From a virus: a stretch of 42,594 bases of DNA. Made by a program: the position numbers and the translations under genes. Positions within the stretch are counted from its first letter, which is position 1; each line of letters opens with the position of its first letter. This document shows positions 3,710 through 42,594 of this stretch, piece by piece. The stretch spans positions 1-42,594 of IMG/VR virus record IMGVR_UViG_3300003937_000089. One strand, given 5' to 3'. The notes beneath the pieces were generated by a model. That model had not been told where the DNA came from. It saw only the letters and a program-made list of their open reading frames with translations, and did no database searches.

Positions 3710-4416
3710 TGAAATTATTTAAAGATATATATAAGTTTTTAATAGGTGAACAATCTGAACCAAAATTAGCGTCAAAACCTAAAGCGTTGGCTAATGCAAT
3801 TAAAAAAAGAAACCCAATAAGTTTTTTTTATAATGGACCAAGAGATCAAGTTCAGGCCGGACGTAGAGTAAAAGTGGAGGTAGTCGCATTAGGACTATCT
3901 AAAAAAGGAAACATGATCATTAGAGGTTGGGTGCAACCCCCGTCAAGATCAAAGACGGGATTTAGTAAAAATAATTGGAGGACATTTATGGTTTCTAGGT
4001 TAAGTCAAGTAGAGATATTTGATCAAGAAACTTTTGACACAAAAAGACCGGGATATAAGGAAGGTGATGATAAATCAATGTCAACAACATACGTGACATC
4101 CGATTGGTCAGAAATACCTCAAGTAACTAAGGATACCGAACCATCCGCAGAACCCCAACAAACTGAACCACAACCACAACCTCAACAAACTGAACCACAA
4201 CCTCAACAAGTAGAACCATCCGTAGAACCTCAACAAGTAGAACCAACTTCTATAGAACCACAAAGTGATGAATTACCAAGTCCCGAACCTGAAAATAAAC
4301 CAAGTATAGAACCACCCGTAATTGATGATTCAGATGAGGAGGAAGAGGATGAAACAAATGATTACGATGGTTTGAATGAGAACATAAAGAGAATTAAAAG
4401 ATTACTTTATAAATAA
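3709..4416 (+). CDS. WYL-like small-barrel protein with Pro/Gln/Glu-rich tail
   Basis: A 235-residue protein in three parts. Residues 1-14 (MKLFKDIYKFLIGE) form an amphipathic helix ending in I-G-E, a candidate capsid-targeting peptide. Residues ~25-125 look like a WYL-type SH3-like barrel: A-I-K-x-R-x-x-I-S-F-F-Y-N-G-P, then V-E-V-V-A-L-G, I-I-R-G-W, F-M-V-S-R-L-S, and the ending R-P-G-Y. Residues ~140-215 are low-complexity, built from EPQQ/TEPQPQ units and then acidic. The C-terminus ENIKRIKRLLYK echoes the protein two genes upstream. WYL domains usually sense nucleic acid or ligands in regulators; here there is no DNA-binding helix, so a transcription role is not supported. It starts one base into the previous stop. 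Confidence 0.7.
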   Translation: MKLFKDIYKFLIGEQSEPKLASKPKALANAIKKRNPISFFYNGPRDQVQAGRRVKVEVVALGLSKKGNMIIRGWVQPPSRSKTGFSKNNWRTFMVSRLSQVEIFDQETFDTKRPGYKEGDDKSMSTTYVTSDWSEIPQVTKDTEPSAEPQQTEPQPQPQQTEPQPQQVEPSVEPQQVEPTSIEPQSDELPSPEPENKPSIEPPVIDDSDEEEEDETNDYDGLNENIKRIKRLLYK

Positions 4417-5110: not shown

Positions 5111-6343
5111 ATGTCAAAAGTTAGAGTACTCGCAATTCCGTCAGATAGTCACGGTGTTGGGAAATATAGAATCATAGATCCATTTACTTATATTGGTGAT
5201 AACCATTCCGATGAAGTACATGTTGATCTTGTATTCGACGTACCTAATGAAAATAAGTTCTTCGAAAATTACGATATTGTATATTTTCACTCATTCATAC
5301 ACAGAGGTAATACCCAATTAAATTTAGATCGTATCGATTGGTTAAGGAAAGAAGGTATTAAAGTTGTTATGGATATTGACGATTTTTGGAGGGTGGATCA
5401 TAGACATCCAAACTACGAAACATTTAAAAGAAATGGTTATAGTAAGGCCCGTGCAGATTTACTTAAGAAATCGGATTACGTTACAACCACAACACCTATT
5501 TACCAAAAAACAATTAAAAGTCTTTTAGGGATAAAGAATGTTTCGGTTTTTCCAAATGCAGTAAACGAAAAGGAATCTCAATTTCAACCAAAACCATTGA
5601 AATCTGACTTAGTTAGATTTGGTTGGTTAGGTGGGTCTTCCCACTTATATGATCTTGAATTAATTAAAAGTGGTATCTCCACGATTACTCAACAATACAA
5701 AGATAAAAGTCAATTTGTGTTGTGTGGGTTTGATTTACGAGGTAATATGAAAACCATAAACCGTCAAACAGGGGAGATGTCAGAAAGACCAATTAAACCT
5801 ACGGAAACTGTATGGTATAAGTATGAAAAAATATTCACTAATGATTATAAATCTGTTTCCGAAAATTATAAGAACCATTTACAGACATTTACACAAACGC
5901 AATTCCCTGAAGAATTAAATCAACCTTATGTTCGTAGATGGACAATGGATATAAATAAGTACGCATCTAATTACAACTATTTTGATGTGTCTTTAGCCCC
6001 ATTAGTTAAATCCGAATTTAATTCTAATAAATCACAACTAAAGGTGATTGAAGCGGGATTTCATAAGAAGGCCATTATTGCAACAGAAGAAGACCCTTAT
6101 CTTATTGATTTAGTTTCTTCGGTTGAACGAGGTGGTGGAATTAATCCTAAAGGTAATTCCTTATTAGTATCGACAAATAAAAACCACAAACAGTGGGGTA
6201 AACATATGAAGAAACTAATAGACAACCCTAATATGATAGAAGACTTAGGTAATAAACTATATGAAACAGTAAAGGTAAAATATTCACTCGCCACTGTTTC
6301 TAAGGATAGAGTGGAATTTTTAAAATCAATTATAAAAAAGTAA
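5111..6343 (+). CDS. Glycosyltransferase, GT4-like (GT-B fold)
   Basis: This 410-residue protein has the architecture of a GT-B glycosyltransferase. The N-terminal Rossmann half starts VRVLAIPSDSHGVGKYRIIDP, with a Gly-rich acceptor loop, and contains a helix-strand set ending KVVMDIDDFW (~92-101). The C-terminal half opens FGWLGGSSHLYDLELI (~174-189). The donor-site region near residue 295-325 (DVSLAPLV ... LKVIEAGFHKKAIIA) has the conserved Glu before a Gly, as in family GT4. It would move a sugar from a nucleotide-sugar to an unknown acceptor in the host cytoplasm: phage protein, DNA base or surface glycan. Two more glycosyltransferases lie 3-5 kb downstream in the same direction. Confidence 0.8.
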   Translation: MSKVRVLAIPSDSHGVGKYRIIDPFTYIGDNHSDEVHVDLVFDVPNENKFFENYDIVYFHSFIHRGNTQLNLDRIDWLRKEGIKVVMDIDDFWRVDHRHPNYETFKRNGYSKARADLLKKSDYVTTTTPIYQKTIKSLLGIKNVSVFPNAVNEKESQFQPKPLKSDLVRFGWLGGSSHLYDLELIKSGISTITQQYKDKSQFVLCGFDLRGNMKTINRQTGEMSERPIKPTETVWYKYEKIFTNDYKSVSENYKNHLQTFTQTQFPEELNQPYVRRWTMDINKYASNYNYFDVSLAPLVKSEFNSNKSQLKVIEAGFHKKAIIATEEDPYLIDLVSSVERGGGINPKGNSLLVSTNKNHKQWGKHMKKLIDNPNMIEDLGNKLYETVKVKYSLATVSKDRVEFLKSIIKK

Positions 6344-7801: not shown

Positions 7802-8500
7802 ATGGCTCAAAGAAAAAGTACAGGTACTAAGGTATCATCAAAACAAAGAATAAAAGAGATATTTAAAAAACCAAGAGAGAAATTTCTAACAGAGTCCCAA
7901 AAAGAGTATTGGGATACGTTAGAAGATAATGAAATAACATTATGTTTTGGACCTGCAGGTGTGGGTAAGTCGTATATCGCTATGAAAAAGGCGTGTGACT
8001 TATTGTGGAATGATAATAACAAATATGAAAAAATTATAATTGTTAGACCCGCTGTTGAGGCCGAAGAGAAATTAGGTTCATTACCTGGTGGATTAGAAGA
8101 AAAGTTAGACCCATATATTTTCCCATCATATTACCTTTTAAATAAAATAATCGGTAAAGAAAACAAAACTAAATTAAAAGATGAGGGGTTTATTGAGGTT
8201 GCCGCATTGGCATATATGAGGGGATGGAATGTAGATAATACTATTCTAATATTCGAAGAGGCCCAAAATGCCACACCGGCACAAATGAAACTACTTTTAA
8301 CAAGAATTGGTTTTAATTCTAAATTCTTTATATCGGGGGATTTAGAACAATCAGATAAATTTAAAGATAAAACTAAAAGTGGTCTTTATGATGCTAAGAG
8401 TAGATTAATGGATTTAAATAATGTGGGTGTATATGAGTTTGGAACTAAGGACATTGTTAGAAACCCAATAATTGGTAAGATATTAAAAAGATACGATTAA
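7802..8500 (+). CDS. phoH: PhoH-like ATPase
   Basis: This 232-residue P-loop ATPase of the PhoH family resembles the helicase half of RecD/UvrD-type folds. Walker A is GPAGVGKS (50-57). The IIVRPAVEAEEKLGSLPGG stretch (~78-97) is the family signature. Walker B reads ILIFEEAQN (148-156), with Glu where the family usually has Asp. Sensor motif GDLEQSD is at ~179-185. PhoH is widespread in marine phages; its role is unsettled, with RNA metabolism or phosphate stress proposed. It stands 21 bases after dut. Confidence 0.93.
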   Translation: MAQRKSTGTKVSSKQRIKEIFKKPREKFLTESQKEYWDTLEDNEITLCFGPAGVGKSYIAMKKACDLLWNDNNKYEKIIIVRPAVEAEEKLGSLPGGLEEKLDPYIFPSYYLLNKIIGKENKTKLKDEGFIEVAALAYMRGWNVDNTILIFEEAQNATPAQMKLLLTRIGFNSKFFISGDLEQSDKFKDKTKSGLYDAKSRLMDLNNVGVYEFGTKDIVRNPIIGKILKRYD

Positions 8501-8501
8501 C

Positions 8502-8532
8502 TTTACTTATAACAATAAATTTATTATATTAT
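8502..8532 (+). promoter_or_regulatory. Weak host-type promoter (TTTA-N19-TATATTAT)
   Basis: TTTA (8502-8505), 19 bases, TATATTAT (8525-8532), ATG at 8537. One mismatch in each box. If used, the mRNA would have almost no leader. Confidence 0.3.
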
Positions 8533-8536
8533 TAAT

Positions 8537-9187
8537 ATGGAGATTTTAATAAACATAGATGGGGTTTTACGTAACACAATTGCAAAGTTTGATTACCACT
8601 ATAAAGATTATTATTTAGATAGGGAGTCTGATGAAAAGACCGATGAGGAGAATTCGTTTGAGTACGGTGTTATAGAACCAGTTAAAAATAACTTCTTATT
8701 AGAGAGTTATTTATACCAATCTAAAAGTGAGTTCGATAATTTTATTTTCATTGATTATGCTATGGAAATATTTGGACATGCAAATCAAAGTTATTTAAAG
8801 GCATTTCATGATTTAAATAATCTTATATATGAAAATAAGGAACATAACTTTACTCTGATAGGTTTAGATCAATTAGGTAAATCTAAACCATCTACATTGT
8901 TCTTTCTTTCTAAAAACGGTTTTATGGGTAATAACGTTAAGTTTACCATGTCTAGTGAAATACCCAAACTTTGGAAAAATTGTGATTTATGGATAACGGA
9001 CAATAAAACAGTTATTGATCATTGTCCTAAAAATAAGAAGGTTGTAAAGTTCAATACTGACTATAACCAACACTTTACAAATCAATTAGAAATACATAAA
9101 TTAACAGAAATAGATAAGACATGGTTGAAATCTTCGGAGAATATTATTATCTCAACATTAGCAAAATTACTGAGACGTGCGAATTAG
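8537..9187 (+). CDS. HAD-like protein with Asn at the nucleophile position
   Basis: A 216-residue protein. The N-terminus MEILINIDGVLRNTIAKFDY has the shape of HAD motif I (hhhhDxDGVLR), but the first Asp, the phosphorylated nucleophile, is Asn (N-I-D-G). A motif II-like Ser/Thr lies in PSTLFFLSKNGF (~117-128), and CDLWITDNK (~149-157) resembles motif IV. HAD phosphatases of this small phage subgroup often act on nucleotides or polynucleotide ends, but losing the nucleophile makes hydrolysis unlikely. It may be a non-catalytic binder. Its end overlaps the next gene by 67 bases. Confidence 0.7.
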   Translation: MEILINIDGVLRNTIAKFDYHYKDYYLDRESDEKTDEENSFEYGVIEPVKNNFLLESYLYQSKSEFDNFIFIDYAMEIFGHANQSYLKAFHDLNNLIYENKEHNFTLIGLDQLGKSKPSTLFFLSKNGFMGNNVKFTMSSEIPKLWKNCDLWITDNKTVIDHCPKNKKVVKFNTDYNQHFTNQLEIHKLTEIDKTWLKSSENIIISTLAKLLRRAN

Positions 9188-9414
9188 AAGTCGAACCGAT
9201 CAAGAATGATAAGGGGGAACCACTACAAGTGGAACAAACAATAAACGTGTTTAAATACGATGCGGTTAAACAATGTATAGATACTATTTTAACTGAGAAT
9301 GTGGTGGACGATAACGGGTTAGGATTACTTAATTCAGAATTATCATTACCATTTAAATTTGCGTTTAACACACTAATAAAATATGGTATTTTAGTTAAAG
9401 AAGAATATGAGTGA
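9121..9414 (+). CDS. Conserved small phage protein
   Basis: A 97-residue protein of alpha/beta appearance. It starts MVEIFGEYYYLNI and contains INVFKYDAVKQCIDTIL (~40-56) and LSLPFKFAFNTLIKYGIL (~74-91). The balanced composition and closely packed overlaps on both sides (67 bases into the previous gene, 8 into the next) indicate a real gene. I have an impression of similar short proteins in other large marine phages but can name no family. No function is assigned. Confidence 0.65.
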   Translation: MVEIFGEYYYLNISKITETCELEVEPIKNDKGEPLQVEQTINVFKYDAVKQCIDTILTENVVDDNGLGLLNSELSLPFKFAFNTLIKYGILVKEEYE

Positions 9415-10474
9415 AAAAATAGAAAACTTGGAAAAAATAGAAAGTGCGTATGATAGGTTAAAATCTAACAAACATAAGTTATACTTTCTTACATATGATA
9501 CTAAAACAAATGCAAGGGCGTCAGTTAAATACATATATGACACCGTACACACTTTAAGAGAAAGTGGGTTAGATGCATACATTTTAGTTGAAGATAAAAA
9601 CTACGTAGGTGTTAATTCGTGGTTAGGTGACAGATTTAAAGATATACCAATTGTGAGTATAAAAGAGGATCAAGTTCAAATGGGTATTGAAGATATTTTA
9701 GTGGTACCTGAATACTACTCTAACGTACTTGAACAACTGGCATCAGTTAAATGTACTAAGGTTATGTTAGTACAACAAACCGAATATATATTTGAAACCC
9801 TACCTGTTGGTAGTAGATGGAGTGATTATGGTTTTGATAAAGTAATTACAACAACACAAAAATCTAAGGAATATATAAAAAGTATTTTCCCTGAGAATTT
9901 GATTCACGTAAATCCACCAAAGATTGGTGATGGATTCTCTCCTTCAGAAAACCCTACCAAACCTTTTATTGCCATTAGTGCGAGAGACCGAGGTCAACAT
10001 AGAAAAGTAATATCAGAATTCTATTTAAAGTACCCTCAACTAAGATGGGTTACATTTAAAGATATGGTACAATTAACCTATGAAGAATTTTCTACCCAAT
10101 TAAAAGAATGTATTTGTTCTGTTTGGATGGACGATGATTCTACTTTTGGGACGTTCCCTTTGGAGTCAATGAAGTGTGAAGTACCAGTTATTGGTAAAAT
10201 ACCTACAACAGAACCTGAGTGGTTGTCCGAGAATGGTATATGGACTTATGATTTAAATAAAATTGTAGAACTACTAGGTACTTACGTTTTAGCGTGGTTG
10301 GAAGGAGTAACAATTACTGACGAAGTAAAAGAAAAAATGAGAGAAACACTAATACCATACGATAGTGATATAATCGATAACAATGTGACATCTATTTTTA
10401 ATTCACTTAAAGAAGGAAGATTAAACGTATTGTCAGAAGCGTTGGATAAATTAAAACAAGAAGAAACAGCATGA
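9407..10474 (+). CDS. Glycosyltransferase, GT4-like
   Basis: This 355-residue protein has a GT-B pattern: KLYFLTYDTKTNARASVKYI (~24-43) as the first Rossmann strand and helix, TTTQKSKEYIKSIFP (~142-156) where an acceptor-half helix is expected, and FIAISARDRGQHRKVI (~178-193) opening the donor half. The donor-binding segment is FGTFPLESMKCEVPVIGK (~240-257), with the conserved E-x-M-x-x-x-x-P-V-I of family GT4. It overlaps its neighbours by 8 and 4 bases, so it is translated with the GT2 enzyme that follows. The target of glycosylation is not evident. Confidence 0.78.
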   Translation: MSEKIENLEKIESAYDRLKSNKHKLYFLTYDTKTNARASVKYIYDTVHTLRESGLDAYILVEDKNYVGVNSWLGDRFKDIPIVSIKEDQVQMGIEDILVVPEYYSNVLEQLASVKCTKVMLVQQTEYIFETLPVGSRWSDYGFDKVITTTQKSKEYIKSIFPENLIHVNPPKIGDGFSPSENPTKPFIAISARDRGQHRKVISEFYLKYPQLRWVTFKDMVQLTYEEFSTQLKECICSVWMDDDSTFGTFPLESMKCEVPVIGKIPTTEPEWLSENGIWTYDLNKIVELLGTYVLAWLEGVTITDEVKEKMRETLIPYDSDIIDNNVTSIFNSLKEGRLNVLSEALDKLKQEETA

Positions 10475-11256
10475 AAAATATAACCGTAATATTACCTATT
10501 CACGATTTGAAAGGTGAATATAATGAAATGTTTTCAAGAGCAATACTTTCTGTAGAACAGTTTCATGACGATGTCTCCCTATTATTAGTGGGACCTAAAA
10601 ATGTCTTGGGAGATCTAAAAAAAGATAGTATTTCAGATAAATTAGATGTTAATATAGTAATCAATGAAGGGGACACAGGTTTCTGTTCTCAAGTAAATTT
10701 GGGAATTGATAATTGTGAAACTGAATGGTTTTCAATATTGGAGATAGATGATGAATACACACCTAATTGGATTAAGTCATTTAGAACATACCATACTCTT
10801 TTCCCTGACGCGGATATCCTATTACCAATCGTTAAAGATGTTAATTCTGAAGGTAAACTTTTGAATTTTACAAATGAATCTGTTTGGGCATATGGTTTCA
10901 GTGAGAACCAAGGAGAACTAAGTAATGAAATACTTTTAGATTATCAAAATTACCAAACAAGTGGTGGTTTCTATAAAACAGAAGTTATTAAAGAAAATGG
11001 TTCATTTAAAGATAATATTAAACTCACATTTAGTTATGAGTTTTTATTGAGATTAACTCATAACGGCGCTAAAGTGGCCACTATCCCTCAAGTTGGGTAT
11101 AGACATGTAAACTTTAGAGAAGACTCATTATTTTGGTCCTATAAAAACTCAGACGATCACAAATTAGGTGATGGTGAAGCTAAGTTTTGGTTGGAGACCG
11201 CTAAAAAAGAATTTTTCTTCAAGAATAAACGAGAAGTAGAATACGTAGACAATTAA
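10471..11256 (+). CDS. Glycosyltransferase, GT2-like (GT-A fold)
   Basis: This 261-residue enzyme starts ITVILPIHDLKGEYNEMFSRA, the typical first strand and helix of family 2. A SLLLVGPKN strand comes next, then N-E-G-D-T-G-F-C-S-Q-V-N-L-G-I (~66-80), matching the N-x-G-x-x-x-A-x-N-x-G segment of GT2 proteins. The metal-binding D-x-D equivalent is ILEIDDEYTP (~90-99). A Gly-Gly segment (TSGGFYKTEV, ~163-172) marks the acceptor loop. It is cytoplasmic, with no membrane segment. It overlaps the GT4 gene by 4 bases and shares one base with the sigma gene start, forming a tight three-gene unit. Confidence 0.82.
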   Translation: MKNITVILPIHDLKGEYNEMFSRAILSVEQFHDDVSLLLVGPKNVLGDLKKDSISDKLDVNIVINEGDTGFCSQVNLGIDNCETEWFSILEIDDEYTPNWIKSFRTYHTLFPDADILLPIVKDVNSEGKLLNFTNESVWAYGFSENQGELSNEILLDYQNYQTSGGFYKTEVIKENGSFKDNIKLTFSYEFLLRLTHNGAKVATIPQVGYRHVNFREDSLFWSYKNSDDHKLGDGEAKFWLETAKKEFFFKNKREVEYVDN

Positions 11257-37126: not shown

Positions 37127-37167
37127 CTCGTTAAATTATTGGTGTTGAAACCAGTATAGACCTAAAA

Positions 37168-37195
37168 CCCCAGCAAACCTTGTTGGGGTTTTTTT
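37168..37195. terminator. Bidirectional terminator between convergent transcripts
   Basis: CCCCAGCAA (37168-37176) / TTGTTGGGG (37180-37188), a 9-bp stem with one G-T pair and loop ACC, followed by seven T on the plus strand. The stop codon of the convergent minus-strand gene (37194-37196) overlaps the T-run. On the minus strand a shorter T-run follows. Confidence 0.85.
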
Positions 37196-37631
37196 ATATC
37201 CCCTTTTCTATTGCCTTCTTAACAGCGGATGAAAATGTTGTCTTATCAAAAGGTATATCATCATTTTGTAAATCTATAAATGTGGACTCTACCGTAGATT
37301 TGGCTCTTCCTTCCACCTCAATCACTTCCCCGTCCATGTAGATCAGTAAAGTAACAATTGTTTTTTTACTCACTTTCGTCCATGGACCAAGTTGGATCCC
37401 TGTTTGAGGGGACTCTATTGATTGTACAATAACATCAATCGGTTTACCATCCATACATAAATTGTATTTATCTGAGATAATGTCTTCCATCATCTGTTTT
37501 ATACCGAATGTAATCCTTCTTTTACTGATTTCTTCCATTTCAATTTCAGTGGTTACTGATTTAATAGAATAACAATCAACCTGTGAAAATAATAGGGTTG
37601 GGAATAATAAGAGTATTAGTAAATTTTTCAT
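37194..37631 (-). CDS. Exported protein of unknown function, last gene of the CsgG-like operon
   Basis: A 145-residue protein with a clear signal peptide (MKNLLILLLFPTLLFS), cut probably just before Gln 17. The mature part has two Cys (20 and 59) that could form a disulfide. It contains an alpha/beta domain: P-I-D-V-I-V-Q-S-I-E-S-P (~64-75), K-K-T-I-V-T-L-L-I-Y-M-D-G-E-V-I-E-V-E-G (~89-108) and a C-terminal helix (TTFSSAVKKAIEKGI). Size, export and position beside a CsgG-like gene recall the periplasmic accessory CsgE of curli systems, but no CsgE signature is visible. The 'strand, E-G-x-A/G, helix' ending also resembles the CsgG/LpoB-type fold. Confidence 0.75.
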   Translation of the reverse strand: MKNLLILLLFPTLLFSQVDCYSIKSVTTEIEMEEISKRRITFGIKQMMEDIISDKYNLCMDGKPIDVIVQSIESPQTGIQLGPWTKVSKKTIVTLLIYMDGEVIEVEGRAKSTVESTFIDLQNDDIPFDKTTFSSAVKKAIEKGI

Positions 37632-37633
37632 AA

Positions 37634-38983
37634 TTAAAATCTGATTTTACCACCAGTCAGAACTTGATAGTTTAATGCATTACCTCCCGATTGCCAAACT
37701 CCCGTAAAACTGATGTTATATTTAAATGTTTTTGTGATTTGAATATCCCAAGAACTAAATGGTACTATTAATAATCCAGGGTCCCACCACTGACCCTCAT
37801 AATACTGTGTGAATGGAGAATACACCCCCAATATTAGAGCCGATGTTGTGATCTTCGGAGTTACTCTAAAGTTTCTATGAATACCACTGACTGCGGATAG
37901 ATTTTGTAATTCTCTTTTACCTAATTTACCTATTGTAAAATTAGCACCCACCATACCCGTAAATTTCTTTTTACCAAACTTAAATGATTCTAAAACAGTA
38001 GTTGTATTTAAATGGTTTTGATCAAAGTTGGTCATCGTGGTGTTTGCACCCACTAAATTAAATGTCCTATTTGGGTTTATCCATGATTTGTAGAAAGTTA
38101 AACTAAAATCATTAGTTACGGTTGTGTATGTAAATAACGCACCTTGGACTCTACTCTTTTTTGTATTCGCACTTGTAATAGATCCTACCACTTTTATTTG
38201 TCGACCATTCGAATTGTCTTGGTTATCAATAACCACGATATCTCCTGATGCTATTAGTGAACCTCTATTTTTATTGTCTGACTCTCCACCATCTATTGCA
38301 TTAGAAACTGAATTTGCCAAAGACATGGTTAACCCACCTTCTTTTGATTCCTCTTCAGTCGCAGTTTCACTACCTTCTGTCGATGTACCGTTTTCGTTAG
38401 TGTTACCTTGACTACCGTTAGTTTCATTAGAACCTGATTCGTTAGACTGTTCAGAACTATTGTTAGATTCACCCCTATTCTCGCTTTTGTTATTGGATCC
38501 TACGGATTGTTCTTTAGAATTTTCGGTTTTAGTATTATTCTTCCCCTTCTTTCTTTTCTTCTTCTTTTTTGATGCGTTATCGATGGCCTCCGCCACGGGG
38601 ACACCTGATGATGATAGTGCCTGTGGTAACATGTCCCCACCCAAAACACTCATTATATTTGTAATTACTGTGATAGTATTTTGAACTATCACTGCATTTG
38701 TATTATTAGTAACTATTTGGGATATTTCTTGACATGGGTTTGAAGAGTTAGATTGAGTAACTATGTTCATCCACGAATCAAAAGTACCATTAGTAAAATC
38801 GAGCTGTGTGAATGTCTGTACGTTACCAAAATAATTCAGAACAATTTCATCACTTGAACCCATCTGAATTGTTTGTTGATTTAAAGTACAGGGATCTGTA
38901 AACGTGTAGGACCACTGACCGTAACCAACCAATGGTAATAAAAATAATATTACCGCAATTATTTTATTCTTCAAATATCCCAC
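37634..38983 (-). CDS. Putative outer-membrane beta-barrel protein
   Basis: A 449-residue protein with signal peptide (NKIIAVILFLLPLVGYG, cut before Gln 23). Residues ~23-125 form an N-terminal domain with three Cys. Residues ~137-215 are a low-complexity linker, first Lys-rich (KKKKKRKKGK) and then Ser/Asn/Glu/Gly-rich. Residues ~240-449 show alternating-hydrophobic strands with aromatic girdles and end G-G-K-I-R-F, i.e. with C-terminal Phe, the usual last-strand signal for outer-membrane insertion. I infer a ~10-14 stranded barrel. It overlaps the CsgG-like gene by 20 bases, so they are probably produced together. It may anchor or gate the export system; I know no named homologue. Confidence 0.72.
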   Translation of the reverse strand: MGYLKNKIIAVILFLLPLVGYGQWSYTFTDPCTLNQQTIQMGSSDEIVLNYFGNVQTFTQLDFTNGTFDSWMNIVTQSNSSNPCQEISQIVTNNTNAVIVQNTITVITNIMSVLGGDMLPQALSSSGVPVAEAIDNASKKKKKRKKGKNNTKTENSKEQSVGSNNKSENRGESNNSSEQSNESGSNETNGSQGNTNENGTSTEGSETATEEESKEGGLTMSLANSVSNAIDGGESDNKNRGSLIASGDIVVIDNQDNSNGRQIKVVGSITSANTKKSRVQGALFTYTTVTNDFSLTFYKSWINPNRTFNLVGANTTMTNFDQNHLNTTTVLESFKFGKKKFTGMVGANFTIGKLGKRELQNLSAVSGIHRNFRVTPKITTSALILGVYSPFTQYYEGQWWDPGLLIVPFSSWDIQITKTFKYNISFTGVWQSGGNALNYQVLTGGKIRF

Positions 38984-39668
38984 GTTTAATCATTCTTTTT
39001 ACAATACGAGCCGTTCCAGATTCCAACGCCTTTTTAGTTGCAATACCAATTGTTGATTTATTGAACTTTACATCATTAACGGAACCAATTTTAGTTCTTT
39101 TTATTGTGACCGCCTCACCACTTCCACTTCCTGTAAAAATGGTACCGTTCTCAGCATTAACAAATCTTACCTGCATACCAATAATAGTTTTTAGTACGGT
39201 CTTCACCCCGTCAATTGTAACTTCCTCTTCTTCAGATACCGAATAATCATATATTTCGACATAAACAAAATACTCCGCTAAAACAACATTACCCACAACC
39301 TTAATATCGTTAGATGATATTCCTTTTGCAGCTGCCTTATGTTGTTTAACCATTCTTTGTTTAATTTCTTCTTTATCTTCCGTAAATAAAAATCTATCAG
39401 TCCATTCCAAATAAGATAGAGTTATGTTACTAACACCTAATCCCACCCTATTTTCTCTTAATTCGGGGTAAAATTCATATAACTCCGGTGTAAAACCAAT
39501 ATTTAAAACTTGGATTGGTAATTGGTAATCTAACATATAATCAGATACCTCATCTATATCAATATCCTGTTCAAACTTACCTTTATAATTTTCGGTCTCT
39601 GTTTTACCTAATTGAGCCTTAACTGTAAAACTTAATAGTAACGATATAATTAAAAATATTCTTACCAT
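38964..39668 (-). CDS. CsgG-like secretion-channel protein
   Basis: A 234-residue exported protein (signal peptide VRIFLIISLLLSFTVKA, cut before Gln 19). The mature region fits the CsgG family: R-V-G-L-G-V-S-N-I-T-L-S-Y-L (~73-86, the first strand and helix of the periplasmic fold), D-I-K-V-V-G-N-V-V-L-A-E-Y-F-V-Y (~121-136), M-Q-V-R-F-V-N-A-E-N-G-T-I-F-T-G-S-G-S-G-E (~164-184) and a C-terminal helix. In CsgG nonamers the transmembrane barrel comes from two hairpins. E. coli CsgG is a lipoprotein; here no lipobox Cys follows the signal peptide. CsgG-like genes have been reported in other marine phages. A role as secretion pore for the neighbouring exported proteins is inferred. Confidence 0.75.
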   Translation of the reverse strand: MVRIFLIISLLLSFTVKAQLGKTETENYKGKFEQDIDIDEVSDYMLDYQLPIQVLNIGFTPELYEFYPELRENRVGLGVSNITLSYLEWTDRFLFTEDKEEIKQRMVKQHKAAAKGISSNDIKVVGNVVLAEYFVYVEIYDYSVSEEEEVTIDGVKTVLKTIIGMQVRFVNAENGTIFTGSGSGEAVTIKRTKIGSVNDVKFNKSTIGIATKKALESGTARIVKRMIKRGIFEE

Positions 39669-39919
39669 GTTATGTCTTCTTCTTTTTTCTCTTTCTTAGG
39701 AGGTATAACAATTGTTTTAGTTATTACCAAAGTATCCTTTATACTACTTGGGGTATTTATTTTTTGTTCCATGACAGGTAAATTTACCTTTTCTTCTTTA
39801 GGTTCAAATACAGATTGCATGTTAGCAATTAATAGTCCGAAACCCGCCGTTATAACTAAACCAATACCTGTTACTATTTGGTTTTTAATTTCTGAAAAAA
39901 ATCCTTTATTTTTACTCAT
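39662..39919 (-). CDS. Small single-pass membrane protein
   Basis: An 85-residue protein with one predicted membrane helix (IVTGIGLVITAGFGLLIANM, ~15-34) after a short Lys-containing N-terminus. A ~50-residue tail follows, ending Lys/Glu-rich (PPKKEKKEEDITW). Orientation by the positive-inside rule would place the N-terminus in the cytoplasm and the tail in the periplasm. It overlaps the CsgG-like gene by 7 bases and the T9SS-cargo gene by 4. The size and topology are also those of some phage holins or spanin-like proteins, but no lysis gene is nearby. An inner-membrane anchor for the export operon is the simpler reading. Confidence 0.7.
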   Translation of the reverse strand: MSKNKGFFSEIKNQIVTGIGLVITAGFGLLIANMQSVFEPKEEKVNLPVMEQKINTPSSIKDTLVITKTIVIPPKKEKKEEDITW

Positions 39920-40653
39920 TGTTTTATTGTTTTAAATGTTTTTACAAATTGTCCGTTAGTAATATGTAAGAGATAAACACCTTGTGGTAATGAAGATAAG
40001 TCCATTTGAAATTGTACCCATCCCGCGAAAAAAGACTTCCTCTCTTTTAAAAATTCTAATCCCCCATAGTTTAATACTCTAATAATATAATCTCCATTAT
40101 CTGGTACTGTCAGGTCGAACGTAATGGGACCTTTAGTTGGGACTGGATAAACAATCCCATAAATACCGTCAGTAGGTCTAGTATCGAAAGGCATTGATCG
40201 TTTATTAACATACCCATCCGTATTTTCAACTTCAATATCCCAACCTAATTCGGTACCCGCAGTTTTCCTACCTATTGTAATTGGAATTTCTGTCCAATTT
40301 TGATCAGTAACTTTAAATCTTACCGTAAATAATTCTGTTGTATTGATTATGGTAAAATTACCGAAGGAGGGATCATAACCTCCCCATCTAACAGTTTCGC
40401 CTTCCCAGTCCATTGTATAGGTTAACCACTCCTGTGCCTTGGGTGTCACCGTAATTGACACAAACTCTAAATAGTTTGGATCGTAATTCAATGCAAATTC
40501 AAGACTACCGACAATCTCACCCTCAGTTTCAATTTCTATGGGTAGATTAATGTAATCACTTACAGGTACTTCAATCTCAGGTACATTAAATACGACCTGA
40601 GATTGTGCACTTGTTGTGAATATTAATACTAATGTCAGTAATAATAATCTCAT
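39916..40653 (-). CDS. Secreted protein with cohesin-like domain and type IX secretion sorting domain
   Basis: A 245-residue exported protein in three parts. Signal peptide 1-18 (cut before Gln 19). Residues ~20-150 form a beta-sandwich resembling cohesin domains: V-P-V-S-D-Y-I-N-L-P-I-E-I then G-S-L-E-F-A-L-N-Y-D-P-N-Y-L-E-F-V-S-I (~49-67). Residues ~164-245 form a C-terminal domain with the hallmarks of T9SS type A sorting domains: Y-P-V-P-T-K-G-P-I-T-F (169-179), a strand V-L-N-Y-G-G, D-L-S-S-L-P-Q-G-V-Y-L-L-H-I (218-231) and T-F-K-T-I-K-Q at the end. Bacteroidota secrete and surface-attach proteins through such domains. For a phage gene this implies use of the host T9SS. Confidence 0.82.
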   Translation of the reverse strand: MRLLLLTLVLIFTTSAQSQVVFNVPEIEVPVSDYINLPIEIETEGEIVGSLEFALNYDPNYLEFVSITVTPKAQEWLTYTMDWEGETVRWGGYDPSFGNFTIINTTELFTVRFKVTDQNWTEIPITIGRKTAGTELGWDIEVENTDGYVNKRSMPFDTRPTDGIYGIVYPVPTKGPITFDLTVPDNGDYIIRVLNYGGLEFLKERKSFFAGWVQFQMDLSSLPQGVYLLHITNGQFVKTFKTIKQ

Positions 40654-40654
40654 A

Positions 40655-41749
40655 TTAATTTAAACCTGTTCCATTGGCATCTCCTAATATTAATAAGTAG
40701 AAGTTACCCGTAGTTGTGTTATTAATTAATGGAGATAAAAACTCCGTTAGACCCGGTATAGAACTAGACTGATCTGATGTTGCACTACTAATAGTAGTAT
40801 ACTGTGCTTCAGTAAAGAACAATACATCTGGATTAGAAGAATAACTTGAGTTACCTTGTGCTAATCTAGAGAATACCATATATGAATCCGATGCGGTAAT
40901 TCCATTATTTTGATTTGTATTCGCAGTATAGAACTGAATTCCTGATGGTGATTGTACCCCCGCAGCAATTTGTGCGATCATATTAGCATCTGCAGTTGAT
41001 AGTGCGGTACTCGCATCTAAACCACTTGCAATCTTGAGTCTAATTTGCCAATAATCCTGATCTAAATTTTCTGAGAACACCGACTCCCCATTCGAGTTGG
41101 TTGTTACTGTGGTAACATCTGTCCAAGACGAACCATCTGACGATTTTTGTAATATTACATCAATAGAGTCTGCTGGATTTGTCCCACTATTTAGAATTGT
41201 GGCGGTATAATCAAATGCCGGTTCTATAAAATTACCACCATTATCTTGTGTACCCAATACCCCATCAGTCCCATCAGACTTTACATAATAAGCGGTAAGG
41301 TCGGTAGTAAAATCTACGTCCGCAACTGCCGAGTTTGTATAGTTAGAAAGAAAAGGGGCATTTACTGTAAACATGTTACCCGCAATCATATCGAAAGTGG
41401 TAGATGATCCTGAATAAACCCATACCACTTTTATAACTCCACTTGTTGAATCGACATCATAAGACAAATACCCGGCAGGGCCAGATGTATTGTTATATGT
41501 TAAAGTGGGTTCATCAAATACCGTGTTATCATAATTAAATGAAAACTGAATACCTTTAACATCATTACCCGACGTATTATCGTAATAAATGTCAAATGTT
41601 GTGTTTGAGGTTGATGAGGTGGATTCTAAAGTGTAAGTTGAATCAAAGATAATATAAGGTTTAGTTGCGTCAGGTGAAGTCGTCTGCCCGAAGACAGTCA
41701 TCGTACCAATTAGCAAAGATAGTGTTAGAAAAATGTTTTTAAGTTTCAT
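40655..41749 (-). CDS. Secreted cohesin-like plus dockerin-like protein
   Basis: A 364-residue exported protein (signal peptide KLKNIFLTLSLLIGTMTVFG, cut before Gln 22). Residues ~35-150 resemble a cohesin beta-sandwich: Y-D-N-T-S-G-N-D-V-K-G-I-Q-F-S-F-N-Y-D (~56-74). Residues ~175-240 are a second beta domain. Residues ~248-300 contain two dockerin/F-hand-like halves: A-L-S-T-A-D-A-N-M-I-A-Q-I-A-A-G (249-264) and N-Q-N-N-G-I-T-A-S-D-S-Y-M-V-F-S-R-L-A (278-297), the latter with the Asx-rich calcium loop. The C-terminus F-Y-L-L-I-L-G-D recurs in the next gene upstream. It lies one base from the T9SS-cargo gene, which carries the other cohesin-like domain. Confidence 0.8.
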   Translation of the reverse strand: MKLKNIFLTLSLLIGTMTVFGQTTSPDATKPYIIFDSTYTLESTSSTSNTTFDIYYDNTSGNDVKGIQFSFNYDNTVFDEPTLTYNNTSGPAGYLSYDVDSTSGVIKVVWVYSGSSTTFDMIAGNMFTVNAPFLSNYTNSAVADVDFTTDLTAYYVKSDGTDGVLGTQDNGGNFIEPAFDYTATILNSGTNPADSIDVILQKSSDGSSWTDVTTVTTNSNGESVFSENLDQDYWQIRLKIASGLDASTALSTADANMIAQIAAGVQSPSGIQFYTANTNQNNGITASDSYMVFSRLAQGNSSYSSNPDVLFFTEAQYTTISSATSDQSSSIPGLTEFLSPLINNTTTGNFYLLILGDANGTGLN

Positions 41750-41766: not shown

Positions 41767-42594
41767 TTAATTTTTATGTCCTACTCTTAATAAATAGAAT
41801 GTTGTCTGATTTCCATTGGCTAAATCAAATAGAGACCATGATCCGTAACCAACGTATATCGTTTTATCGTCTGAATCCGCAGCAACTGCCGGCCAAATGG
41901 TCGGGTTTTGCCAAGAATTTGTGTTCCATATTTCTTGTCCCCCACCAGGGTAACTAGAAATGTTACCGTGTCTTCTCTGGTGCATTAGATAGATATCAGA
42001 GACAGAAAACGAACCTGTATTATTCACATCCATTCTCCAATAATCTTTTGAACTGAATGTGTCTGATAATAATCTATCTTGAAACCAATTTATATCTGTG
42101 GTTATAAGTGTTCCTAATGACGGATTAATATCTATTGTAAAATCGTAATCGTTGTAATTTAATGTGGTATTAAAAGAATAATACCCATTTGAATCTGTTG
42201 TTGTTGTTGCTTGAGTCGTATATGAAAAACCGACTTGATTTTTATTCTGTGTCTTTAGATAAACTGTTTGTCCTCCAATACCTTGTTCTTCTCCCCCTTT
42301 AATATAACCACTTGCCGTGATTGGTACAGCGTTAGGGTCGGTAGCAGACCATTCTGCAAATGGATGACTAGGACTGAGTTGATTAAATTGACCTGTATTG
42401 TAGTTAGCGGGTATTTCATATTGGAAATTTGCAGCACCTATACCACCAAAATTCTGTATTCTATATTCAAATTCATACCATACAGTTTTATCTAGGGTTG
42501 CCGTACCATAAGCCCATACATTCCAACCATAATGTTTAGTAACTATATCATTAGTCTTACCAATACCTTTAATCATAAACTCATGTGAGTCATC
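41767..42594 (-). CDS. Extracellular dockerin-like multidomain protein (partial, N-terminus beyond right edge)
   Basis: The frame is open to the right edge (D-D-S-H-E-F precede Met 42576), so the gene starts outside the window; at least 275 residues are present. Contents in order: a beta domain with Y-E-F-E-Y-R-I-Q-N-F-G; a carboxypeptidase-regulatory-like domain (G-Y-I-K-G-G-E-E-Q-G-I-G-G-Q-T-V-Y-L ... D-S-N-G-Y-Y-S-F); and a dockerin-like pair (I-T-T-D-I-N-W-F-Q-D-R-L and D-V-N-N-T-G-S-F-S-V-S-D-I-Y-L-M-H-Q). The C-terminus F-Y-L-L-R-V-G-H matches that of the next gene. No T9SS sorting domain is seen. It is probably an extracellular matrix-type or adhesive protein, exported like its operon partners. 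Confidence 0.8.
   Translation of the reverse strand, partial: DDSHEFMIKGIGKTNDIVTKHYGWNVWAYGTATLDKTVWYEFEYRIQNFGGIGAANFQYEIPANYNTGQFNQLSPSHPFAEWSATDPNAVPITASGYIKGGEEQGIGGQTVYLKTQNKNQVGFSYTTQATTTTDSNGYYSFNTTLNYNDYDFTIDINPSLGTLITTDINWFQDRLLSDTFSSKDYWRMDVNNTGSFSVSDIYLMHQRRHGNISSYPGGGQEIWNTNSWQNPTIWPAVAADSDDKTIYVGYGSWSLFDLANGNQTTFYLLRVGHKN

Follow-up and report, generated by a model that had tools for sequence, protein, structure and literature searches.

Introduction

Cohesin–dockerin scaffolds are best known from cellulosomes. In cellulosome scaffoldins and Coh-X-Doc chains (PDB entries 3kcp and 4fl4), an anchored cohesin is combined with an adaptor of cohesin, X module and dockerin and with dockerin-bearing clients, and the phage operon described here appears to contain counterparts of these parts. 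It differs in that the parts are encoded by a phage, a type IX secretion system (T9SS) sorting domain serves as the anchor, the clients are lectin-type proteins and one dockerin repeat is degenerate.

Phage-encoded T9SS cargo is already known. Cryophage has been described to carry genes whose products end with a T9SS type A domain, PA14 also being present in one, and host-system hijacking and superinfection were discussed in the same paper (PMC7468147); an ORF of crAss-BACON with a T9SS domain has also been published (PMC6949934). The phage protein that we refer to as the anchor is therefore not the first phage T9SS cargo. It resembles the Cryophage proteins in being phage-encoded and in carrying a T9SS type A C-terminus, but in Cryophage enzymes and PA14 proteins are tagged directly, and the available portions of that paper mention no cohesin, dockerin or CsgG operon (PMC7468147). 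Phage CsgG operons are likewise known: the CsgG–CsgF curli operon of pelagiphages and of phage Melnitz is similar to ours in pairing a CsgG-fold pore with small exported partners (PMC7029224, PMC9004378). Going by the accessible parts of these two papers, our operon differs in that no CsgF was recognized and that it includes cohesin–dockerin proteins and T9SS cargo.

The closest isolated relatives are the Flavobacterium phages vB_FspM_immuto (MW353175–MW353177, NC_055915), in which the gene order is the same and the anchor has a homologue of about 51% identity, QQO91933.1 ('Cohesin domain-containing protein'). It is annotated as a cohesin only, and immuto has a C-type lectin where our sequence has a PA14-like domain. 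No open-access paper combining 'Flavobacterium phage' with 'cohesin' was found, and no description of a phage cohesin–dockerin–T9SS operon was found in the open-access literature, subscription papers lying outside the scope of the search.

Here, we report an analysis of a 42,594-base IMG/VR virus record (the window). Starting from sorting and cohesin domains, a conserved operon and the swapping of domains among its products, we lean towards the reading that a T9SS-exported phage anchor bears dockerin-tagged binding proteins, building a cellulosome-like display at the surface of the infected cell. The cohesin domain of the anchor and the operon that surrounds it both go beyond the first-pass annotation of this DNA, which had dealt with the sorting domain.

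Results

Operon organization and the anchor protein

The window encodes a major head protein (phrog_138) and a terminase (phrog_2), in keeping with the earlier assignment of the anchor gene to a phage. Seven genes follow one another on the minus strand, on which all of the operon features given below lie: the 3′ part of a lectin-type gene and the genes for a 364-residue partner, the anchor, an 85-residue protein, a 234-residue CsgG-fold protein, a 449-residue protein and a 145-residue protein. Successive genes are spaced by 17, 1, −4, −7, −20 and 2 bases. A terminator-like hairpin of 13 pairs (37164..37192) lies between the operon end and a convergent ClpA/B-like gene (phrog_4871). Sigma-70-type promoters were rarer than in shuffled sequence, and for this reason none is claimed.

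The anchor gene (39916..40653) begins with ATG and encodes 245 residues, in which a signal-peptide-like start, a cohesin domain and a C-terminal T9SS type A sorting domain can be distinguished. The start (residues 1–19, 40597..40653) is hydrophobic as read by eye and ends in SAQSQ. Residues 22–128 (40270..40590) belong to the Cohesin family, scoring 37.5 bits against PF00963 (cut-off 24.1); profile A1 reached the archaeal cohesin 2xdh_A with an E-value of 0.0025, and the median dN/dS of this domain is 0.072 (nine sequences, all 36 pairs usable).

The sorting domain occupies the extreme C-terminus (residues 168–245, 39919..40152). A T9SS type A pattern had been read in the last ~80 residues, and the motifs indeed lie there: YPVPTKG at residues 169–175, DLSSLPQGVYLL at 218–229 and FVKTFKTIKQ at 236–245. 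The search against TIGR04183 (Por_Secre_tail) that had been proposed as a check gave 28.9 bits (E = 8.4e-7, all 72 positions covered, curated cut-off 23), and PF18962 gave 32.0 bits (curated cut-off 27). In a six-frame search, the anchor (31.1 bits) was the sole TIGR04183 match within the 42,594-base record, and the same search of 14 well-known genomes found signal in two and passed the cut-off in one. TIGR04183, PF18962 and Cohesin were each matched in 13/13 aligned anchor homologues (E ≤ 0.01), and the median dN/dS of the sorting domain, 0.134 (nine sequences, 36 pairs of which 32 were usable), indicates purifying selection; the linker and the signal region gave 0.186 (26/36 pairs usable) and 0.240 (34/36), respectively. 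As every homologue matches and the codons are under purifying selection, the match is not due to chance. Among 28 viral or phage records hand-picked from the loci, each contained exactly one TIGR04183 match, always above the cut-off; the type A tag is thus kept on the anchor and absent from the lectin-type proteins.

Partner protein and its natural fusion to the anchor

The partner (364 residues, 40655..41749, ending in GDANGTGLN) would comprise a signal-like start followed by cohesin-like, Ig/prealbumin-like and dockerin-like regions. This architecture is taken from fused homologues rather than from the partner itself, for which no Pfam match above the cut-off was obtained. Its putative dockerin-like loop (residues 277–288, 40886..40921) has the form N-x-N...D, in which N277, N279 and D288 do not vary across 30 homologues; N replaces the first D of the dockerin loop in the clade of the window.

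In three of the 36 locus groups described below, partner and anchor form a single chain of 630–648 residues. A scan with these fused chains returned 220 relatives in viral contigs, 80 of which were taken on; together with two from a genome scan they make up 82 loci, in which the fused profile was found in 81, the CsgG-like gene in 78, the 449-residue family in 76 and the 145-residue family in 68. The 77 complete ORFs of 560–700 residues gave 64 distinct fused proteins, with matches (E ≤ 0.01) to TIGR04183 and PF18962 in 64/64 each, to Cohesin in 56/64 and to Dockerin_1 in 15/64. Since the two proteins are naturally fused in many phages, it is suggested that partner and anchor act together.

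A separate arrangement was seen in three contigs, in which the chain is split by TGA and an immediate ATG at the junction that also divides the two genes in the clade of the window (L151, 639–2531; L155, 9956–11848; L167, 9956–11848). The anchor half after the TGA has no signal peptide in these contigs, and readthrough, reinitiation or fission are possible.

One fused protein (L092) was modelled from a 46-row alignment with a pLDDT of 76. The model consists of a β-sandwich (residues 32–176), an Ig-like piece (180–249), three helices in a dockerin-like arrangement (261–271, 279–285 and 295–305), a second sandwich (407–535) and a seven-strand C-terminal domain (557–637). The second sandwich, compared as residues 404–541, matches the cohesin CaCohA2 (6kgd_A) with a Z-score of 16.0 and an r.m.s.d. 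of 2.8 Å over 136 residues and is a cohesin. Residues 31–307 matched 3kcp_A, from the multimodular components of Clostridium thermocellum, a Coh-X-Doc fragment of CipA, with a Z-score of 13.2 over 234 residues; the r.m.s.d. of 10.1 Å means that the module order agrees but the relative placement of the modules does not. The N-terminal cohesin-like domain of the fused protein, and hence of the partner, is a prediction of this model.

The dockerin-like region can be followed through the fused proteins, all 64 of which keep the loop D294-x-N296...D305, while the first repeat has lost its calcium ligands except for the last D. Searched against the PDB, the profile of these 64 proteins (A13) matched T9SS sorting domains (5jvk, 8glk_D and 8glj_D), a dockerin (4uyp_B) and cohesins, with modest E-values of 0.002–0.04. 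A type I dockerin would show a PF00404 match above the cut-off and two calcium-loop repeats; here only the second loop keeps D-x-N...D, and in Pfam neither the partner nor the lectin-type protein of the window has a dockerin match above the cut-off. We therefore describe these ends as dockerin-like, without claiming full membership, and infer that they may work like a dockerin.

Lectin-type binding proteins

The gene for a putative secreted binding protein leaves the window at its right edge, and only its 3′ part is present (41767..42594). The fragment covers the end of a PA14-like region, followed by an SdrD_B/CarboxypepD-like and dockerin-like region that is common to the lectin-type proteins, with every match below the cut-off; the best scores of the relatives against the dockerin model PF00404 were 12.3–16.0 bits (cut-off 22.9). 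The PA14 assignment itself is weak: no Pfam match was obtained for the window-type lectin, PA14 adhesins appeared in its profile search at E = 0.12, and a relative of the window's protein (L003) aligned pairwise with a PA14-bearing protein (L116) at E = 3e-6.

The N-termini vary. Among 14 distinct lectin-type proteins, Lectin_C was above the cut-off in six (two of them also with Laminin_G_3), GEVED occurred in two and PA14 in one, and no named domain was found in the other five. Two of the lectin-type proteins (L015 and L096) are 85% identical over their C-terminal 187 residues and have no detectable similarity upstream, which is a domain swap as judged by sequence.

The composition of these clients bears on a nutritional explanation, in which a phage mini-cellulosome would hold binding or degrading modules and infected cells would feed on polysaccharide or break down matrix. 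Cohesin–dockerin scaffolds are typical of cellulosomes, and an endoglucanase and a GH39 protein are among the T9SS cargo of Cryophage, according to the accessible part of the paper (PMC7468147). However, no glycoside hydrolase domain was found in the 14 proteins scanned, only binding or Ig-like domains, so that the defining feature of a cellulosome, a scaffold carrying plant-polysaccharide enzymes, is absent from the clients scanned. We regard this explanation as unlikely.

CsgG-fold protein and the remaining operon genes

The 234-residue protein (38964..39668) has a signal-like start. Confidence in its AlphaFold2 model is low (pLDDT 63), but Foldseek placed CsgG at each of ranks 1–25, with E-values down to 9.4e-7, and comparison with 6l7a_A gave a Z-score of 9.9 and 5.5 Å over 162 residues, the first non-CsgG entry having a Z-score of 7.9. 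On the strength of the model, the protein has a CsgG fold. It belongs to no Pfam family and lacks the lipobox cysteine after its signal, so neither the Pfam match nor the lipobox of a CsgG protein is present; a lipobox-like GC does occur in the diverged homologue of L220. The resemblance was seen by fold search only, as sequence profiles of the CsgG-like, 145-residue and 449-residue proteins gave nothing useful against the PDB.

The three other proteins have no family identity from sequence or PDB-profile searches. The 85-residue protein (39662..39919), with one transmembrane-like stretch by eye, is encoded by a gene that overlaps the end of the anchor gene. The 449-residue protein (37634..38983) looks exported, with a low-complexity middle and a conserved C-terminal region of ~240 residues; family and PDB-profile searches gave no match above chance, and by eye it is possibly an outer-membrane protein. 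The final gene (37194..37631) encodes an exported-looking protein of 145 residues. The profile of its family (24 sequences) matched ribosomal protein S1 in the PDB over 53 positions (E = 7e-4), the only and weak profile match, which is probably due to chance; an S1 identity was rejected accordingly.

Given the CsgG fold, the operon might instead serve as a curli-type pore module that times lysis or mediates uptake, a role suggested for pelagiphages and phage Melnitz, with the cohesin–T9SS gene as a passenger. Phage CsgG/CsgF operons have been published (PMC7029224, PMC9004378), as far as the available parts of these papers go. Against this, the order of the cohesin–T9SS anchor and the CsgG-like gene is kept in very diverged phages, and the sorting domain is intact in all 28 picked records; we find this reading improbable. 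Alternatively, the CsgG-fold pore and Sec alone might carry out export, with the T9SS domain persisting as a relic of a bacterial cohesin protein. This would suit phages that encode their own putative pore, but it is quite unlikely given that the sorting domain is under purifying selection and is retained in 64/64 fused and 13/13 split proteins.

Distribution and the PorV/PorQ-family neighbour

A scan with the anchor found 14 viral loci of 75–98% identity, in most of which the seven operon genes were found, and alignment-based scans found 47, 34 and 48 loci. The resulting 122 loci (including a copy of the window; many are fragmentary) fall into 36 groups by shared 400-mers. BLAST matches were obtained for the partner and the anchor in 35 groups each, for the CsgG-like and 449-residue proteins in 33 each, for the 145-residue protein in 31 and for the 85-residue protein in 12; the count for the lectin-type protein (35/36) is not independent because its C-terminal region is like that of the partner and the two cross-match.

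Among 50,697 phage records, the only isolates matched were the four GenBank/RefSeq records of vB_FspM_immuto, the host of which is Flavobacterium sp. LMO8. The operon genes, except the 85-residue one, were found there by similarity, located after genes for ribonucleotide reductase and nuclease. The host phylum proposed from the sorting domain in the first-pass annotation agrees with these relatives. Host contamination of the contig was rejected because the operon is found again next to phage genes and in the complete genomes of immuto. As for a bacterial origin nearby, a CsgG-like match was found in 2/296 genomes of one order and the fused profile in 1/196 (E ≤ 1e-20); a scan of genome contigs found two loci (L203 and L204), the first flanked by tail and endolysin genes.

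A more diverged lineage is represented by L220, a contig from a genome sharing its taxonomic order with a Flavobacterium MAG, and by seven viral contigs (L221–L227). Its cohesin–T9SS protein has 916–959 residues where complete, and its gene is followed by one for a PorV/PorQ-family protein and then by the transmembrane, CsgG-like, 449-like and 145-like genes, these last four in the order of the window. Family tests were made on L220: its cohesin–T9SS protein scored 29.1 bits against TIGR04183, above the cut-off, and 22.9 bits for cohesin (cut-off 24.1), and the PorV/PorQ-family protein scored 73 bits (E = 3e-20, below the cut-off of 90). In the viral contigs, the PorV-like gene adjoins the cohesin–T9SS gene near 8001–8870 (5776–6645 in L225). 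A sequence search of the PDB with the PorV-like protein gave no match, and none of the 28 records that resemble the window in kind has the gene. In the G151 contig, the PorV-like protein shares 79–97% identity with its counterparts in six viral contigs and 55% with that in a seventh, and this closeness is why the contig is taken as phage.

PorV and PorQ are T9SS factors, so a phage-encoded neighbour of this family supports a link to T9SS. Ig-like decorations are common in phages and the T9SS sorting domain too has an Ig-like fold, which would suit virion proteins whose T9SS-like domain is an Ig-like fold of the phage particle, unused for export, but this is very unlikely in view of the curated T9SS models that match all aligned homologues, the signal-peptide-like starts (by eye), the position of the immuto operon after ribonucleotide reductase and nuclease genes rather than a tail module, and the PorV/PorQ-family neighbour in the second lineage.

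Discussion

The reading that we favour, a surface scaffold held by the anchor, can be set out as a series of steps. The anchor would first be exported by Sec, after which its C-terminal domain would hand it to the T9SS of the host; the latter would move it across the outer membrane and fix it on the cell surface, as its sequence leads us to infer. The anchor cohesin would then be an exposed socket. The partner, which is also cohesin-like, and the lectin-type protein would each present an Ig/X-like module and a dockerin-like plug at the end, and binding of these plugs to the anchor would build a small cellulosome-like scaffold displaying binding domains on the infected cell. In the records examined, the lectin-type proteins lack a type A T9SS tag, so that their route to the surface would be either carriage by the anchor or passage through the CsgG-fold pore. 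Infected cells thus probably carry virus-made adhesive proteins on their surface. The benefit is the least certain step: host glycans may be masked against competing phages, or the infected cell may stick to cells or particles.

More tentatively, the scheme could extend to widespread tailed phages of Bacteroidota, which would share a T9SS cohesin anchor, a Coh-X-Doc adaptor, swappable dockerin-lectins, a CsgG-type pore and, in one lineage, a PorV/PorQ factor; the lectins, riding on the anchor, would pass through the T9SS of the host and prevent superinfection or trap new host cells.

If the surface scaffold exists, it would constitute a viral programme that makes use of the host T9SS, together with a plug-and-socket scaffold of the cellulosome type, to remodel the surface of the infected Bacteroidota cell. 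It would suggest that T9SS is able to carry piggy-backed partners, and it bears on the unsolved purpose of the CsgG operons of marine phages. Its testable parts (socket, plug, tag and pore) are available in an isolated pair, immuto and Flavobacterium sp. LMO8.

Several further observations were made. Another phage gene with a T9SS domain, this one of type B, lies in a related locus (L003; 4248–5522, minus strand) and scored 51.4 bits against PF13585 (CHU_C; cut-off 27); the type B model TIGR04131 was matched in 4/28 picked records. Beside this gene lies one for an exported-looking protein of 121 residues (3881–4243, minus strand) with a single terminal dockerin/EF-hand-like loop, DFDGDGIVGAED, for which only EF-hand matches below the cut-off were obtained. 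In the window itself, positions 634–1095 hold a low-complexity ORF of repeats (12 protein letters), and glycosyltransferase-like genes were recognized by eye at 5111–6343 and 9407–11256, possibly pointing to further surface modification.
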